Shown: piece after piece, positions 37,458-53,268 of the stretch
Position numbering within the stretch: position 1 is the first letter of the stretch
Layout: each line of letters begins with the position of its first letter
NCBI GenBank assembly: GCA_903844155.1
Contig: CAIMSU010000232.1
Span: 1-64,000, forward strand
Source of the DNA: an uncultured Pseudomonadota bacterium
GTDB lineage: Bacteria; Myxococcota_A; UBA796; SXON01
Length of the DNA: 64,000 bases
Reading direction: 5' to 3'
Translations under genes and position numbers: made by a program
Notes under the pieces: model-generated
Database searches by the model: none
Told to the model about the DNA's origin: nothing
What the model saw: only the letters and a program-made list of their open reading frames with translations

Positions 37458-38647
37458 GCGGGGGGCCAGCGCGTGCGCTCGGCAAAAATCGCGCCGCTAT
37501 CCATCTGGAATTGCGTGGTTGGGGATTCCCGCTGGCCCCCAGCCCGCCGTTCCGCGCACGAACCGTGACAGGCGGCGTCTTCGCCGGCTGGCGGGGTTCG
37601 TGGCCTTGGAACGGTGAGAATTGACCGCCGAGGTCGGTGCGAGGCGCGCCGAGCGCCGGCATCGGTGGCCCGCTCGGGCGTGATCACGCTGGCAACGCGG
37701 GTGCGCAGCACGCCCAGGCCCCAGGCGCCACGCGCGAACGCCACCGACGCGAAGCCGTGCGCAAAGACAGCTTGCAACGGTGGGATCTGCTCGGTGTAGT
37801 AGGTCCAGCAGTGCCTGCTCGTCCCCCAGTATTCAAGGAACCAGCCCAGCGCCGCGCCGCCCCAGAAGATGCAGAGATCCTCCCGATGATCCTTGGGGAG
37901 GCCGAGGACCAGCAACATCCCGAAGAACGCGAGCTGGGTGGCCCAGTCGTGCCCCGTCGGCGAGACGAACGCCGTGAACCAGGCCACGAACGGGGGGAGC
38001 GAACACCACCACAGCGCCTGCGTTGCGCGCGGGGACAGCGGCGGGAGGGCTTTGTCGAGAAACCATGCGATGCGGTCGATGGCCAGGGCGGCAACGGGCC
38101 AGGCGGGGAGGATCCAGATGGGCGGGCGCTCTTGCGTGTAGTAGTGCCAGAGCACCGTCACCGTCCCCCATGCCTCGATCAGCAAGCCACCGACAAAGCC
38201 AACAAACGCGCGCGTGAGGTCCCGCTCGGGCACGATGCGCCAGCACAGCAGCGCCGACATGAAGATCCAGATGCACGGCAGCAGCAGGTCCACATGGCGC
38301 CAGGCTTCCCCGAGCACCGCGCGCCAGTCGTTGGACTCAAGCGCCGGCAAGCTCGGCGCTGCCCACTGAAAGATGAACAGGTTCGAGAACACCATTCCCA
38401 CGAGGCCGTAGAGGACCGACAAGCACACGAGCGCGTAGATGCTGCGCGCATCGTAGCCCTCGACAACGACATCCCGCGCCCGGAACAGCAGCGATCGCGC
38501 ACGCTCGCGCAATGCGCTGCGGGCCTGCGCAGGGGCGCGCTCGGCGGGGGGCGGCGGCGGGGGTTGCACGGGCCGTCGTCTATCGCGCCGCTCCACGAGG
38601 AGCGCCAGGATCGGCGTCCCCTTGCTTTCCATGGCCCGCGGAGGCAT
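37454..38647 (-). CDS. multipass integral membrane protein of unknown function
   Basis: 397 residues from the ATG at 38647; a second ATG at 38632 is also possible. A Pro-rich cytosolic stretch (PVQPPPPPPAERAPAQ) is followed by about eight TM helices (YALVCLSVLYGLVGMVFSNLFIF; LLPCIWIFMSALLCW; AFVGFVGGLLIEAWGTVTVLW; ...). Aromatic motifs WHYYTQERPPIWIL and CWTYYTEQIPP recur as internal repeats. The C-terminus is a disordered Arg/Pro tail. I do not recognise a family. It is coupled to the PH-domain pair and divergent from the large MopE-repeat gene 24 bp away. Confidence 0.65.
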   Translation of the reverse strand: MPPRAMESKGTPILALLVERRDRRRPVQPPPPPPAERAPAQARSALRERARSLLFRARDVVVEGYDARSIYALVCLSVLYGLVGMVFSNLFIFQWAAPSLPALESNDWRAVLGEAWRHVDLLLPCIWIFMSALLCWRIVPERDLTRAFVGFVGGLLIEAWGTVTVLWHYYTQERPPIWILPAWPVAALAIDRIAWFLDKALPPLSPRATQALWWCSLPPFVAWFTAFVSPTGHDWATQLAFFGMLLVLGLPKDHREDLCIFWGGAALGWFLEYWGTSRHCWTYYTEQIPPLQAVFAHGFASVAFARGAWGLGVLRTRVASVITPERATDAGARRASHRPRRSILTVPRPRTPPAGEDAACHGSCAERRAGGQRESPTTQFQMDSGAIFAERTRWPPA

Positions 38648-38671
38648 GATCGCCCGGCTCACGAGACGACC

Positions 38672-41600
38672 ATGCGAACCAGCGCCCTCCCCACCCTCCT
38701 CGTCCTCCTTGGCCTCGGCCTCCCGTCCGTTGCCCACGCCGCCACCTGGACCGTCGACCGGTACGGCAGCGGCGACTTCACCAGCATCCAGGACGCGATC
38801 GACGCGTCCAGCGAGGGCGACACCATCGAGGTCAAGCCCGCGACGTACGCCGAGCAGGTCGATTTTGACGGCAAGGACGTGACGGTGGAGAGCACGGATG
38901 GTGCAGCCCGGACCGTCATCGACCCGGGCAGCGCCGCTGCGACGTACGCGGTTCGTTTCGCGAGCGGCGAGGGGCCTGGCGCGTCGTTGCAGGACGTCAC
39001 CGTGCGCAATTCCGCAGGCGTCGCCGTCGACATCGAGGGCGCCAGCCCGAGCTTCCTGGACGTCGACATCTCCGACTCCGGCTCCTACAGCGTGAACGGC
39101 GGCGGCGTATCGGTCAACGGCGGTGCACCAAGCTTTCTCGGCGGAACCATCTCGTCCAACTACGGCTACTACGGCGGCGGCGTCTACGTGACCGGCGGCG
39201 GGTCGGCGTCCTTTGACGGTACGACACTCTCCGGCAACAACGCCTATTACGGGGGCGCTTCCTTCGACGACAGCGCGGCGATCACGTATGTGAGCGCGTC
39301 CGTCGCCTCCAACGTCTCCGTTTACGCTGGCGCCCTGTATGTCACGGGCAGCGGCCTCGACAAGCTGACCAACACGGACCTGACCGGAAACCTCGCCTAC
39401 TACGGAAACGGCGCGGCGATCTCCGCCAACAATGGCGGCACCGCGAGCATCACTGGCGGTACGATCTCTGGCAACTACAACTACTATTGGACGTCGGGCT
39501 ACTGGGGCGCCGTTTTCGCGGGGGTGAACGCGGGCATCTCGGCCACTGACGTGACATTCTCAGGCAACTACGGCTACTACGGCGCCGCGATTGGCGCGTA
39601 CGACAACTCTGAGCTCCTGATCGACGGGTGCACGTTCAGCGGCAACACCGCGTACTACGGGGGCGCCGCGATCGTCTACTACCTCGCCACGTCGACCATC
39701 ACCAACAGCGAGTTCAGTGGGAACACCGCCTATTATGGGGGCGGCGGCATCTACAGCTACGACGGCACGGGCCTCGACATCAGCGACTCGCGGTTCGACG
39801 GGAACACCGCTTCGTACGGGTATGGCGGTGGCATCGAGGTCAATTCCGACGGCGTGCTCGATCTCTCAGGCGACGTTTTCGACGGCAACCTCGCCTACTA
39901 CGATGGCGGCGGCATCTACGCTTACGCGGTCTATGGGGGCGTGAGCCTCTCGGACACGACGCTCTCGGACAACGAAGCCTATTACTATGGGGGTGGGCTC
40001 TACGCCTACTACTACACGCCCACGACCATCGTCGATGGTGCGGTGACCGGCAACACCGCGTACTACTACGATGGCGGCGGTATCGACATGTACTACTATT
40101 CGGCCGGCTCGATCGACGGGACGACGTTCTCGGACAACACGGCCGGTGAGTATGGGGGCGGCGTTTGCTTCTACCCGAACTACTACTACAGCCTGGACGT
40201 GACGGGCGCGCGCTTCACCAACAACTCGGCGTACGACGGGGGCGCTCTGATGCCCATCTACGCGAACGCCGTGACCATCGATCAGACGAGTTTTCAGGGA
40301 AACACGGCGACCTACGGCGGCGCACTATTTGACGATGCAACGTCGACAAAGACCGTTTCCAACAGCTACTTCTGCGGCAACAGCGCCAGTGGCTCTGGCG
40401 GCGCCGTCTACAACTACTACACCTACGGCGGGACGGACGCCTGGACGAACAACATCTTCCAGGAGAACTCCGCGACCAATTCTGGCGGCGCGTTCTACAC
40501 CGGCTACTCCTACTACATGGCCATGACCAACAACACGTTGGTCGGCAACACCTCTGCGTCGGGCGGTACGTTCTATCTCACCTACTACACGGCGTTGACC
40601 CTCACGAACAACCTCGTCGCCTACACGGCGGCGGGCAACGGCCTCGACGGGTACTACTCCACCGCGTCTGCGACCTACAACGACTGGTACGCGAACACGG
40701 CCGCGGACGACCCGTCTGGCTTTGGGGTCACCGGCGGCACGAACCTTGGCGTCGACCCCAAGCTCACCAACTACACCCTCGACGGCGACTGCACGAACGA
40801 CGATCTCACCCTCGCGCACGGGAGCCCACTCGTCGACGCCGGCTCGCCGTCCATCTACGATCCGGACGGCAGCGTGAGCGACATCGGCGTCTACGGCGGG
40901 CCCGCCTCGTCCGTCTACGATGCCGACGGCGACGGCTATAACAACACGGTCGACTGCAACGACAGCGACGCCACCGTGTACCCCGGCGCCACCGAGATTC
41001 CCTATGATGGCATCGACCAGGACTGCGACGGCAAGGATGTGACGGACGTGGACGGCGACGGTTGGGACGCAAGTGAGGCGGGCGGCCCCGATTGCAACGA
41101 CAACGACGCCACGATCAACCCCGCGGCGACCGAGGTTGCGTACGACGGCATCGACCAGGACTGCAACGGCAGCGACCTCACGGACGTCGACGGCGACGGC
41201 TTCGCGGCGACCGGCAGCGGCGGTGGCGACTGCAACGACAACGACGCGACCATCAACCCCGCAGCCTCGGAGATCTGGTACGACGGTGTCGATGAGAATT
41301 GCGACGGCCTCTCCGATTACGACGAGGACGGCGACGGTTTTGACAGCTCCAGCTACGGCGGTACCGACTGCGACGACTCCGACGCAACCGTCTACCCCGG
41401 CGCCCCCGACGACCCCTACGACGGCAAGATCACTGATTGCAACAACGCAAGCGAGGGGGACGCAGACGGGGACGGCTACACCAGCACGGTGGTCGGCGGC
41501 ACGGACTGCGACGACAGCAACGCGAGCGTGAACCCCGGCGTCGCCGAGACCTGGTACGACGGCGTGGACGAGGACTGCTCCGGCGGCTCGGACTTTGACC

Positions 41601-42115
41601 AGGACGGCGACGGGCACGACGCGCTGGCCTACGGCGGCGACGACTGCAACGACGTGGACGCGACCGTCTACCCGGGCGCCACCGAGATCTGGTACGACGG
41701 CGTCGACCAGAACTGCGACGGCAACGACGTCGATCAGGACGGCGACGGCTACGCGAGCGCTGACTACGGCGGCACCGATTGCAACGACACCGACGCCAGC
41801 GTTCACCCAGGCGCGGGCTGCGGCGGCGACACCGGTACCGGCGACACGGGCAGCGGTGACACCGGCAGCGGTGACACCGGCAGCAGGGATTCCGGCGACA
41901 CCGGGAGCGGCGACACCGGCGGTGGGGACACGTCCACGACGGGCGATACGGGCTCCGATACCGGCGATCACGGCGGCCCGATCGACACCTCCGGCAATGG
42001 CCAGACCAAGGGCGGTGGCGGCTGTGGCTGCGCGTCCGCGCCCGATGGCGGCGTCGCGGGTGCGATGCTGGTGGTCGCGGGCTTGATGGTCGGGCGTCGG
42101 CGCAAGTCGGGCTGA
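38672..42115 (+). CDS. giant surface protein: beta-helix, seven MopE-type metal-binding repeats, MYXO-CTERM-like tail
   Basis: 1147 residues from the ATG at 38672. Signal peptide 1-23. Residues about 25-700 form a right-handed beta-helix with a pectinesterase-like start (GSGDFTSIQDAIDASSEGDTI) and many GNTAYYGGGxY rungs, unusually rich in Tyr-Tyr pairs. Residues about 750-1050 hold seven MopE-type repeats (DxDGDG ... DCNDxDATxxPGAxE ... YDGxDxDC), the fourth degenerate (YDGKITDCNN) and the seventh truncated. A GDTGSGDTG linker (about 1053-1106) leads to the tail: a Cys-Gly-Cys motif, a hydrophobic helix, then RRRKSG. MopE repeats are putative metal sites; the tail fits MYXO-CTERM sorting. Confidence 0.9.
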   Translation: MRTSALPTLLVLLGLGLPSVAHAATWTVDRYGSGDFTSIQDAIDASSEGDTIEVKPATYAEQVDFDGKDVTVESTDGAARTVIDPGSAAATYAVRFASGEGPGASLQDVTVRNSAGVAVDIEGASPSFLDVDISDSGSYSVNGGGVSVNGGAPSFLGGTISSNYGYYGGGVYVTGGGSASFDGTTLSGNNAYYGGASFDDSAAITYVSASVASNVSVYAGALYVTGSGLDKLTNTDLTGNLAYYGNGAAISANNGGTASITGGTISGNYNYYWTSGYWGAVFAGVNAGISATDVTFSGNYGYYGAAIGAYDNSELLIDGCTFSGNTAYYGGAAIVYYLATSTITNSEFSGNTAYYGGGGIYSYDGTGLDISDSRFDGNTASYGYGGGIEVNSDGVLDLSGDVFDGNLAYYDGGGIYAYAVYGGVSLSDTTLSDNEAYYYGGGLYAYYYTPTTIVDGAVTGNTAYYYDGGGIDMYYYSAGSIDGTTFSDNTAGEYGGGVCFYPNYYYSLDVTGARFTNNSAYDGGALMPIYANAVTIDQTSFQGNTATYGGALFDDATSTKTVSNSYFCGNSASGSGGAVYNYYTYGGTDAWTNNIFQENSATNSGGAFYTGYSYYMAMTNNTLVGNTSASGGTFYLTYYTALTLTNNLVAYTAAGNGLDGYYSTASATYNDWYANTAADDPSGFGVTGGTNLGVDPKLTNYTLDGDCTNDDLTLAHGSPLVDAGSPSIYDPDGSVSDIGVYGGPASSVYDADGDGYNNTVDCNDSDATVYPGATEIPYDGIDQDCDGKDVTDVDGDGWDASEAGGPDCNDNDATINPAATEVAYDGIDQDCNGSDLTDVDGDGFAATGSGGGDCNDNDATINPAASEIWYDGVDENCDGLSDYDEDGDGFDSSSYGGTDCDDSDATVYPGAPDDPYDGKITDCNNASEGDADGDGYTSTVVGGTDCDDSNASVNPGVAETWYDGVDEDCSGGSDFDQDGDGHDALAYGGDDCNDVDATVYPGATEIWYDGVDQNCDGNDVDQDGDGYASADYGGTDCNDTDASVHPGAGCGGDTGTGDTGSGDTGSGDTGSRDSGDTGSGDTGGGDTSTTGDTGSDTGDHGGPIDTSGNGQTKGGGGCGCASAPDGGVAGAMLVVAGLMVGRRRKSG

Positions 42116-44385: not shown

Positions 44386-45123
44386 TCAGCGCGTCTCGGT
44401 CTGCGATGGCGGCTGCACCGCGCCCGCGAGGGGCACCGGGCCTGTCTTCGGCACGTCCTGGAACGTCTCGCGCAGCACGTAGCGGCCATGGCCCTGGTTC
44501 GTGAGCGTGACGGTCGCACGGTAGTCGGCGAAGTCGTATTCGCGACGGTCCTGCTGGAGCGGACCGTGGTCGATGTGCTCGACTGTGCCGAGGCCGCGCT
44601 CGGTGGTGACGGGGCCGGCCGCGGCCATCAGCGCGTCGCTGATCGATTGGTAGAGCGCGATCGCGTCCGTCGAGTCGGTGAGATCGTAGTGGACGTCCAC
44701 GGAGATGAGCAGGCCCGCGGCGTCGAACCCGAAGCGGACCTCCTGGGCCTGTCGGGCGCTCCCGTACGCCGCGGCTGCCGCGTCAAGCGCGTTGGCGGGC
44801 ACGTTCTCGCAGCGGGTCGTCCCGACGTCCTGGGGACAGGTGAGGGAGTGTGCCGCTTCCCACGCCGTGATCTCGGCGGCGGTGGTCACGGCGAGCGTGA
44901 AGCCCATGGCCGGCCGCGCATGCGCCGGCACGGTGCCGGCTGCCGGCGCGAGCACCTGAGCGCGCACGGCATCGCGCGCCTCAGGCTTCATGTCGCCTCC
45001 AACCGGGCATTTTCCGCCGAGCCAGAGGTAGGGCAGAAGGAAATGGCCCGACGGGGTGTGGGCGAAGCCGATGAGCGCGACGAGCGCGATCACGACACCG
45101 CCCAGGCCGGCGAGCCACTTCAT
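44386..45123 (-). CDS. membrane-anchored hypothetical protein
   Basis: 245 residues. One N-terminal hydrophobic helix (LAGLGGVVIALVALIGFAHT) without a lipobox anchors an exported alpha/beta domain with three Cys (GGKCPVGG, SLTCPQD, TRCENV). Strands near FGFDAAGLLISVDVHYDLT and YDFADYRATVTLTNQGHGRYVLRE. No family recognised. It lies between the globin-like lipoprotein and the sulfatase-like gene with short gaps, so probably same transcript. Confidence 0.6.
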   Translation of the reverse strand: MKWLAGLGGVVIALVALIGFAHTPSGHFLLPYLWLGGKCPVGGDMKPEARDAVRAQVLAPAAGTVPAHARPAMGFTLAVTTAAEITAWEAAHSLTCPQDVGTTRCENVPANALDAAAAAYGSARQAQEVRFGFDAAGLLISVDVHYDLTDSTDAIALYQSISDALMAAAGPVTTERGLGTVEHIDHGPLQQDRREYDFADYRATVTLTNQGHGRYVLRETFQDVPKTGPVPLAGAVQPPSQTETR

Positions 45124-45135
45124 CCGCGATCCCGC

Positions 45136-45699
45136 TTAGTGGCCGATGATCGTGGCTTCGAACGCCGGATCGGTCAGCGGCGGGGCGAAGCAGTTCGCGA
45201 TGTCGCTGTCCGGAACGCTGTCGCTCGACAACACGCCGGCGATGAGGGCGATGAAGTCGTCGTACTGGGCCTGCGTGATGGCCATGCCCGTGTGGGCGGT
45301 GATCATGTCAGGGCCCGTGTAGGCGCCGGTGGTGCAGCCGTAGGCGTCCGAGATGAAGTTCGCGAGGCTGGTCTCGAACGCCGCGACGGCGTCCGCACCG
45401 CTGGCCACCAGGGGGGCGAAGAACGGCGAGAACTCGGGGTCCGACGCCGCGGTCGTGGTGATCTGCTGCGCGACGAGGGGGACCGCGCCACCGTAGGTCG
45501 CACACACGTCGGTCGTGCAGGCGTTGGTGTCCGTGTCGGTGTCCGTATCGGTGTCCGTATCGGTGTCCGTGTCGGTGTCCGTGTCGGTGTCCGTGTCGGT
45601 GTCCGCTGAGCTGTCCATGGACGGGGACGAGTCAGACGCGCCCTTGCCCGAACAGGCGGTGAGAGAGAGGAACGGGGTGAGAATCAGAAAAGCGTGCAT
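45136..45699 (-). CDS. lipoprotein with Asp-Thr repeat linker and truncated-globin-like domain
   Basis: 187 residues. Lipobox LTAC (Cys16), a Ser-rich stretch, then a run of 13 Asp-Thr pairs (33-58). Residues 67-187 follow the truncated haemoglobin plan: YGGAVPLVAQQI, DPEFSPFF (CD region with Phe), AAFETSLANFI (E helix), YTGPDMITAHTGMAIT with a candidate proximal His136, then YDDFIALIAGVL and a last helix before IIG. The B10 Tyr typical of trHbN is not seen. A lipid-anchored extracytoplasmic globin is unusual. Heme binding is inferred from motif order; two extra Cys pairs suggest disulfides. Confidence 0.62.
   Translation of the reverse strand: MHAFLILTPFLSLTACSGKGASDSSPSMDSSADTDTDTDTDTDTDTDTDTDTDTDTDTNACTTDVCATYGGAVPLVAQQITTTAASDPEFSPFFAPLVASGADAVAAFETSLANFISDAYGCTTGAYTGPDMITAHTGMAITQAQYDDFIALIAGVLSSDSVPDSDIANCFAPPLTDPAFEATIIGH
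45530..45602. repeat. 12-bp tandem repeat encoding Asp-Thr linker
   Basis: About six tandem units of GTGTCGGTGTCC with small variants (GTATCGGTGTCC). It translates on the minus strand as alternating Asp-Thr. Likely to vary in length by slippage without shifting frame. Confidence 0.8.
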
Positions 45700-45782
45700 A
45701 TGGCCTCCAACGCGGGGGTATCCCGCGCGTACCCATAACTACGTTTGAGCGGCCGCGCTGGATCGGCCGATATTTTCGGTCC

Positions 45783-51813: not shown

Positions 51814-53268
51814 GTGGGTGCCCGGGGGATCACGTTTTGCGGATTACTGGCGTTATCGCAGGTGTTTGCCGTTCGACATGCCCGCGCGGGTGACGCTCCC
51901 GCTGATCTCGACGCCCTCCTGGCTCTCGCTCTGGACCGTCACCCCGAGGCCGCGGCGTTGACGGCTGACGCGCACGCTGGTCGTGCTGAGGCCATCGCTG
52001 CCGGTCGCCCGATGGACCCGGAGTGGATGATCGGCGCCCAGGCGCTCGGCGCGATGCCGTCCTCGCTCGACCCGACGATGCTGATGGTGGGCTTCAACCA
52101 GACGATCCAGCTCCCTGCCGCGTACCAGGCCCCTCGCGCCCGGGCGTCGTTGGACGTGCGATGGGCGGAGGAGGAGGAGTTCCGCCTCGAAGCCGACCTT
52201 CGCGAGACCCTCTGGGAGACCGCCGCCCGCCTGCATGCCGATGGCCTCGAAGCCACCGCGCTCGACGACGAGGTCGCCGCCGCGGAAGCCGCGCTCGCTT
52301 TTGGGCGGGCCCGATACGCGGCAGGTGCGGGCACGACGGCGCCGATGCCACGGTCGTCCTCGGCCGTCCCGGCTGCGGCTGGAGCGGGTCGGCCCGTGGT
52401 CCAGCGCCCGGAAGCTGGCGCGGTCGGGATGGGGGCGATGACGGGGATGGGCGGCGGGCAGGCGACAACCGGGACGATGACGGGGACCGGGTCGATGCCG
52501 GGGATGGGTGGGTCGACGCCGGGGATGGGGGCGATGACGGGGATGGGCGGGGCGATGACGGGGATGGGGGCTGAGGGGCTCGCCGCGTTGCTCGGGCTGC
52601 AGACGCAGGTGGCGCGCGTGCAGGCCGACCGGGCGGCGCTCGCGGCGACCACGGATGGCGAGCGTGCGCGGCTCGCCTTGATCGTCGGCGACGACGTTGC
52701 CGGACTGGTCGCTGCCGACCCATCCCGGTTCGTCGGTGTGCCGACGGCGCCCCGCGCGCAGCCCGAGCGCACCCTGGCCGCCACCACGGTCCGGATGGCG
52801 ACGGCGGACCTGACCATCGCGCGGACGGCCCGCCAGCCGACCTTCATGGTCGCGACCGCGCTCCGGGTGATGCCTGAGGGCATGATCGACGGTGTGGATG
52901 CGCAGCTTGGCGTGATGTTCCCGGTCTGGGACGGCGCCCACGCGCGCATCGAGGCGGAAGCGGCAGACGTGGACGCCGCGAGTCGCCGCGCCGACATGGT
53001 CGGCCGTGAGCTGGACGAGGCCATCGCCATTGCGCGGAGCGACGAAGCCGCCGCCGAAGCCCGCGCCACCGCGCTGAACACCCTCGCCCGGCCATCCGCT
53101 CGCGCCGCCTGGAGCGCCGCGCTCGCCGTCTGGGGCACCGGCTCCGGCACCACCGCCGACCTCGTCAGCGCATGGCAGCAGGACGTGGCCGTCACCCGCG
53201 ACGCCATCGCTGCAGACCTCGCCGCCGAGCTTGCCCGCGCGCGCGTCGCCCGCCTGGAGGGGAGATGA
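51814..53268 (+). CDS. TolC-family outer-membrane efflux protein with a Met/Gly-rich insert
   Basis: 484 residues. Signal-like N-terminus (GITFCGLLALSQVFAVRHARA). The first OEP half has LALALDRHPEAAALTADAHAGRAEAIAAGRPMDPEWMIG and a long coiled coil (EEEFRLEADLRETLWETAARLHADGLEATALDDEVAAAE). Residues about 200-253 are an insert with 11 Met (GMGAMTGMGGG, SMPGMGG, AMTGMGGAMTGMG). The second half repeats the helical hairpin. TolC/CusC proteins form the outer channel of tripartite exporters; Met-rich motifs often bind Cu(I)/Ag(I). No periplasmic adaptor or RND pump is adjacent. Confidence 0.8.
   Translation: MGARGITFCGLLALSQVFAVRHARAGDAPADLDALLALALDRHPEAAALTADAHAGRAEAIAAGRPMDPEWMIGAQALGAMPSSLDPTMLMVGFNQTIQLPAAYQAPRARASLDVRWAEEEEFRLEADLRETLWETAARLHADGLEATALDDEVAAAEAALAFGRARYAAGAGTTAPMPRSSSAVPAAAGAGRPVVQRPEAGAVGMGAMTGMGGGQATTGTMTGTGSMPGMGGSTPGMGAMTGMGGAMTGMGAEGLAALLGLQTQVARVQADRAALAATTDGERARLALIVGDDVAGLVAADPSRFVGVPTAPRAQPERTLAATTVRMATADLTIARTARQPTFMVATALRVMPEGMIDGVDAQLGVMFPVWDGAHARIEAEAADVDAASRRADMVGRELDEAIAIARSDEAAAEARATALNTLARPSARAAWSAALAVWGTGSGTTADLVSAWQQDVAVTRDAIAADLAAELARARVARLEGR

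Follow-up and report, generated by a model that had tools for sequence, protein, structure and literature searches.

The window analysed here is a 64,000-nucleotide stretch of a contig from an uncultured bacterium with a genome of myxobacterial type. On its minus strand lie two neighbouring genes, one for a predicted exported lipoprotein with a globin-like domain and one for a second exported protein, here called the partner (Table 1). The first of these reading frames is real, as the first-pass annotation, which gave no strand, had held; it runs on the minus strand from an ATG at 45699 to a stop codon ending at 45136 and encodes a 187-residue precursor. The same annotation described the product as lipid-anchored and carried on a 26-residue Asp–Thr spacer, and both points are supported: the lipobox reads LTA-C16 with a Cys that is kept in relatives, and a Ser-rich linker leads from Cys16 to the (DT)13 array. 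It missed, however, a paralogue on contig C65, relatives with several globin domains in tandem and the conserved partner gene.

Table 1. Features of the globin–partner locus, in window coordinates.
Feature	Coordinates	Strand	Basis
Stalked lipoprotein globin gene, 187 aa	45136..45699	minus	ORF and translation; conserved relatives
Shine–Dalgarno GGAGG, 4 nt before ATG	45704..45708	minus	sequence
Predicted lipoprotein signal peptide MHAFLILTPFLSLTA, residues 1–15	45655..45699	minus	sequence; lipobox Cys in 32/32 complete stalked ORFs
Lipobox Cys16, predicted lipid attachment site	45652..45654	minus	LTAC motif; equivalent Cys in relatives
Asp–Thr stalk (DT)13, residues 33–58, in-frame GAYACS hexamers	45526..45603	minus	sequence
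Predicted truncated-globin domain, residues 61–187 (127 residues)	45139..45519	minus	profile matches, AlphaFold, Foldseek
His136, predicted F8 proximal haem ligand	45292..45294	minus	aligned with His81 of M. tuberculosis HbN
Cys61, invariant in single-domain clade	45517..45519	minus	alignment
Cys66, invariant in single-domain clade	45502..45504	minus	alignment
Cys122 (EF corner), invariant in single-domain clade	45334..45336	minus	alignment
Cys170 (H helix), invariant in single-domain clade	45190..45192	minus	alignment
Partner gene, 245 aa, exported	44386..45123	minus	starts 12 bp after globin stop

That the window protein is a lipoprotein is highly probable. A lipobox is present in all 32 distinct, complete stalked ORFs (eight with a single globin domain and 24 tandem; one more ORF is cut by a contig end). 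A script requiring a Met, a hydrophobic stretch and a lipobox recognised 24 of them, and the other eight, with a lipobox-like Cys, were recognised by eye; for L048 the script chose an upstream site. Among the unstalked globin ORFs retrieved, only the one from Hymenobacter has a lipobox. One feature counts against the lipoprotein-globin reading, namely that the n-region of the window protein's signal peptide contains no Lys or Arg. In E. coli, an Asp after the lipobox Cys retains lipoproteins in the inner membrane. As Ser17 of the window protein is not such an Asp, the protein would be sorted to the outer face of the cell envelope, and a location on the outer surface appears rather likely.

Because the stalk is encoded by GAYACS hexamers, slippage could alter its length without a frameshift. 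Similar (DT)n-encoding hexamer arrays occur in the same genome on at least 19 contigs, suggesting that such stalks are a general device of the organism. NCBIfam matches of the window protein to MSCRAMM/SdrC were rejected as due to the low-complexity stalk only. In five of the related lipoproteins (L016, L003, L005, L011 and L048) a Cys motif, CPxGQKxNLDGLCVVDPYA, lies between lipobox and stalk; it is absent from the window protein.

The globin domain is well hidden at the level of single sequences. Taken alone, the window protein gave no significant globin match in searches of Pfam, NCBIfam and the PDB, phmmer included. It does not reach the Pfam globin model PF01152 (Bac_globin), which six close relatives matched once and weakly (E 0.15), a failure that tests the sensitivity of one curated model and is not a structural criterion. 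A profile built from six members (P0001, the 81% identical C65 paralogue, G002, Nannocystaceae SSF46, Deltaproteobacteria Ga0077550 and Enhygromyxa salina) gave a different picture: it matched group 1 truncated haemoglobins in the PDB, and its 19 best matches there were all truncated haemoglobins, 16 of them at E < 0.001 and the best at 4.7e-5. The structure prediction proposed in the first-pass annotation as a check on its truncated-globin reading was run and returned a globin fold. The AlphaFold model of the domain has a pLDDT of 93.1 and a pTM of 0.84, from a folding alignment of 13 rows, of which nine hold an ordinary truncated globin or the lipoprotein globin from Hymenobacter. In Foldseek, the best 48 PDB matches of this model are all truncated globins, led by 1dly, with a TM-score of 0.77 by query for 1dly and up to 0.82 by target; the E-values are modest (7e-3) though the probability is 1.00. 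On this modelling, a globin fold is close to certain. The profile matches favour placing the domain in group 1 (N-type) of the truncated haemoglobins.

Gly-Gly motifs at the AB and EF corners are typical of truncated haemoglobin groups N, O and Q and variable in group P (PMC4720485). The tandem relatives retain both motifs in nearly all domains. In the single-domain clade, the AB Gly-Gly is gapped in the alignment and the EF motif has become Gly-Cys, one Gly having been replaced by Cys. This clade is well supported in the tree and sits on a long branch, which the tree does not place firmly with the TrHbN-2 subgroup or elsewhere.

Relatives of the window protein were found at loci outside its genus (L026–L028 and two in G043), in the same-genus genome G002 and in the C65 paralogue. 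They share about 60–81% identity over the domain and all keep the lipobox, a low-complexity stalk, the His and the four Cys, more conservation than chance would give. Tandem relatives from the same GTDB family and order are lipoproteins in which two or three truncated-globin domains follow one another. Their domains score 89–147 bits against PF01152, for which the cut-off is 21, and one matches 1dlw, the haemoglobin of P. caudatum, at 2.8e-18. Another twenty PF01152 matches from other parts of the phylum, considered as candidate group 1 forms, were set aside as other truncated globins without lipobox or stalk.

The partner protein consists of an N-terminal hydrophobic helix (signal or anchor), the motif GFAHTPxGxxLL...CP and an alpha/beta domain in which two Cys are invariant in 11 aligned homologues. 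It has no Pfam or NCBIfam match and no recognised signalling domain. A fold of the DcrB/PA1624/Mog1-PsbP class was considered and is not claimed, given a mean AlphaFold pLDDT of 72 and Foldseek TM-scores below 0.3 by query length. The partner gene immediately follows the globin gene in L026, L027, L028 and L070 (G043, contig C87), and its homologues also adjoin tandem-globin genes. Adjacency was seen at 20 loci, the window included (G000, L026, L027, L028, G043, G024, G025, G021, G016, G010, G008, G011, G019, G020, G017, G009, G052, G054, G053 and G049). No adjacent partner is present at the C65 paralogue, the G002 copy or the G043 copy on contig C39.

Among 60 genomes of the order, both genes occur in 24, the globin only in one (G002, which is 79% complete), the partner only in one (G045) and neither in 34. 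The partner is therefore present in 24 of the 25 globin-lipoprotein genomes versus 1 of the 35 others (Fisher p 1.7e-14, in a test that ignores shared ancestry). G034 was left out of the globin-lipoprotein genomes, its sole match being an unstalked 132-aa ORF. In seven of the 24 genomes the partner lies away from the globin gene on the draft assembly. The pair is found in four families of the order (f1, f2, f3 and f5), and in every one of them other genomes lack both genes. Collectively, these observations make a functional pairing of globin and partner likely. The linkage is new here, and no family is assigned to the partner.

A third component appears in some species. In five genomes the partner sits within a frame of ~480–600 aa, and in the three that were read (G019, G020 and G021) an OB-like lipoprotein is fused in front of it; in G010, G052 and G054 the OB-like lipoprotein is encoded next door. 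It occurs as a separate gene at L081:9229-10002 and L082:5666-6334 and fused at L071:4656-6098 and L083:8629-10074, carries the motif VRGRVVKA..GIFG.NWYHLRDGTG..DLTVT and has no Pfam or NCBIfam match.

Beyond these genes, no further gene was widely common to the globin neighbourhoods compared. An operon with the upstream M16 peptidases or the downstream sulfatase was discarded, as neither arrangement is conserved around relatives. A link to denitrification was likewise rejected because NosZ is missing from all 25 globin-lipoprotein genomes. A BKACE (PF05853) gene (L067:7205-8080, L068, L077, L073) comes after the single-globin paralogue that has no partner, both in the same genome and in G002; in two other genomes, BKACE homologues are found close to tandem-globin genes. 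Elsewhere in the window, the plus-strand ORF at 37637-42115, whose true start is probably ~38.7 kb, encodes a large protein. Its DxDGDGY repeats are MopE-like and putatively bind metal, and it also contains a Gly-Asp-Thr stretch and ends in a tail resembling MYXO-CTERM. A further plus-strand ORF at 51814-53268 is outer-membrane-efflux-like and has a Met-Gly-Thr-rich repeat insert (TGMGGAMTGMG).

The haem pocket was compared across 62 lipoprotein globin domains (eight single and 54 tandem) aligned with M. tuberculosis HbN and P. caudatum haemoglobin. The His136 of AHTGMAIT, put forward in the first-pass annotation as the candidate proximal ligand, corresponds to F8 and is invariant, as are CD1 Phe and F4 Met (each 8/8 single, 54/54 tandem). 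That annotation was also right that the B10 Tyr is lacking: B10 is Thr in the window protein; the eight members of the single-domain clade divide equally between Thr and Val, four each, and the tandem domains have Leu, Val or Ile there. With Tyr in none of the 62, its absence is a conserved trait of the family. E7 is Leu or Phe throughout (Phe in the window protein), E11 is Leu in 61 of 62 domains, the window protein included, and G8 is Phe in the single-domain clade. The Tyr B10/Gln E11 pair of NO dioxygenase globins is absent from all 62 domains. Hydrophobic distal residues at B10, E7, E11 and G8 are typical of TrHbN-2 and predict low O2 affinity (PMC11904497, PMC4720485). Measured against this hydrophobic pocket, the window protein agrees at E7 (Phe), E11 (Leu) and G8 (Phe), with Thr at B10. 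Haem binding by the domain is considered likely, and a distal pocket without the usual hydrogen-bonding residues would be expected to have a loose hold on O2, CO or NO and to let them go quickly. Since B10 Tyr and E11 Gln are missing, much as in TrHbN-2, gas exchange that is fast and of low affinity is a better fit than NO dioxygenation. Exactly four Cys are present in all eight single-domain members and two in 40 of the 54 tandem domains. The four conserved Cys probably form disulfides, which would suit an exported protein in an oxidising compartment.

Taken together, the explanation that we favour, with some confidence, is a lipid-anchored, stalked N-type truncated haemoglobin that binds gas loosely and is assisted by its partner. 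The domain would be exported, acylated at Cys16 and sorted outward. One haem b, loaded in the envelope, would be held through His136, and O2, CO or NO would exchange loosely at the end of a flexible, acidic Asp–Thr stalk. Such a protein may serve as a gas buffer, carrier or sensor rather than as a tight O2 binder or NO dioxygenase; the largely apolar distal pocket argues against NO dioxygenation and against tight O2 sensing. The partner, as a second exported protein, would most likely be an accessory that helps to load haem, to assemble the globin or to read it out. That the actual function is to buffer or carry gas is a tentative proposal. We place somewhat more trust, though still slightly less than even, in a broader view, in which stalked lipoproteins of one to three globins, a near-obligate partner belonging to a new family and, in certain species, the OB-like lipoprotein form a Myxococcota surface system relaying gas or haem.

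The module could instead scavenge or store haem: the apoprotein would be exported, take up extracellular haem and pass it on, with the partner and the OB-like lipoprotein as a relay. Sec-exported proteins arrive in the envelope unfolded, so that haem must be obtained there by any exported apoprotein; further, two or three domains per protein would increase capacity, and no reductase gene is conserved alongside in the neighbourhoods compared. We nevertheless judge this unlikely, as the constraint on CD1 Phe, E7 and E11 roughly equals that on the haem ligand itself, beyond what a scavenger needs, and no other gene is widely common to the neighbourhoods. The near-perfect co-occurrence with one partner would suit a sensor, in which the stalked globin, placed at the cell face, detects O2 or NO and signals its ligand state to the partner. 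Apolar haem pockets can favour NO or CO over O2, as H-NOX proteins illustrate. However, the neighbourhoods compared contain no conserved kinase, cyclase or regulator gene, and the partner offers a TM or lipoprotein anchor with no recognised signalling domain, so that a sensor too seems improbable.

Detoxification of NO or peroxide at the surface, close to what the first-pass annotation had suggested, is less probable again. The group 1 relative M. tuberculosis HbN is an NO dioxygenase. Further, the TrHbN of S. benthica reacts with peroxides, a reactivity tied to Tyr at CD1 (PMC11904497). Against this role stand the loss of B10 Tyr and E11 Gln in every domain aligned, a Phe rather than the peroxide-linked Tyr at CD1, the lack of a reductase partner in the neighbourhoods compared and the missing NosZ. 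Finally, a haem-free pseudo-globin acting only as a surface module or adhesion domain, for which the altered Gly-Gly motifs and long branch of the single-domain clade could speak, is very improbable given the invariance of F8 His, CD1 Phe and F4 Met in single and tandem domains alike.

The preferred reading, a stalked N-type globin with its partner, points to an undescribed haem- or gas-binding system of the cell envelope. To our knowledge, work on truncated globins has dealt almost exclusively with soluble proteins of the cytoplasm. The standard survey of the family was restricted to sequences of < 160 residues (PMC4720485), a limit by which stalked and tandem forms would be removed. A literature search, with most subscription papers outside its reach, turned up no truncated globin in this group that is stalked, tandem or a lipoprotein, and no description of the partner; the closest forms were the cable-bacteria fusions. 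Exported truncated globins are already known from cable bacteria, and sequence searches show lipoprotein forms in Hymenobacter; mono- to tri-globin stalked lipoproteins were not found described. Together with the partner, these lipoproteins allow globin chemistry to be tested in a setting other than the cytoplasm, raising the questions of how haem is loaded, which gas is bound and why there is a stalk. Tests look feasible, as the named strain Enhygromyxa salina SWB007 (L028) has the gene pair.

Among known systems, TrHbN-2 (S. benthica SbHbN, PDB 8UGZ) shares the fold, the F8 His and mostly hydrophobic distal residues, and the best-matching database relatives outside Myxococcota share the motif MITAHTGM. 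TrHbN-2-type relatives, however, start at the globin domain without a signal peptide or stalk, whereas the window clade has signal peptide, lipobox and stalk; it differs further in four invariant Cys, Ala rather than His at B13, Phe at CD1 and the lack of an AB Gly-Gly motif. M. tuberculosis HbN (1idr) has the same fold and proximal His, but it is no lipoprotein, and its distal pocket carries Tyr at B10 and Gln at E11. The lipoprotein truncated globins of Hymenobacter (L030/L156, L158–L161), of which we know of no study, likewise combine a lipobox, a single globin domain and the F8 His. They differ in having no long stalk, in a large insertion ahead of the E helix and in belonging to Bacteroidota, and apparently represent an independent export of the globin domain. 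The first-pass statement that truncated globins are cytoplasmic therefore does not hold as a rule, as cable bacteria also show, in which exported proteins contain one or two truncated globin domains each (lPHCtX, PMC11976967). The cable-bacteria globins are periplasmic and fused to pentahaem cytochromes, whereas the window protein has no multihaem cytochrome, carries a lipid anchor and a stalk, and is accompanied by a different partner.
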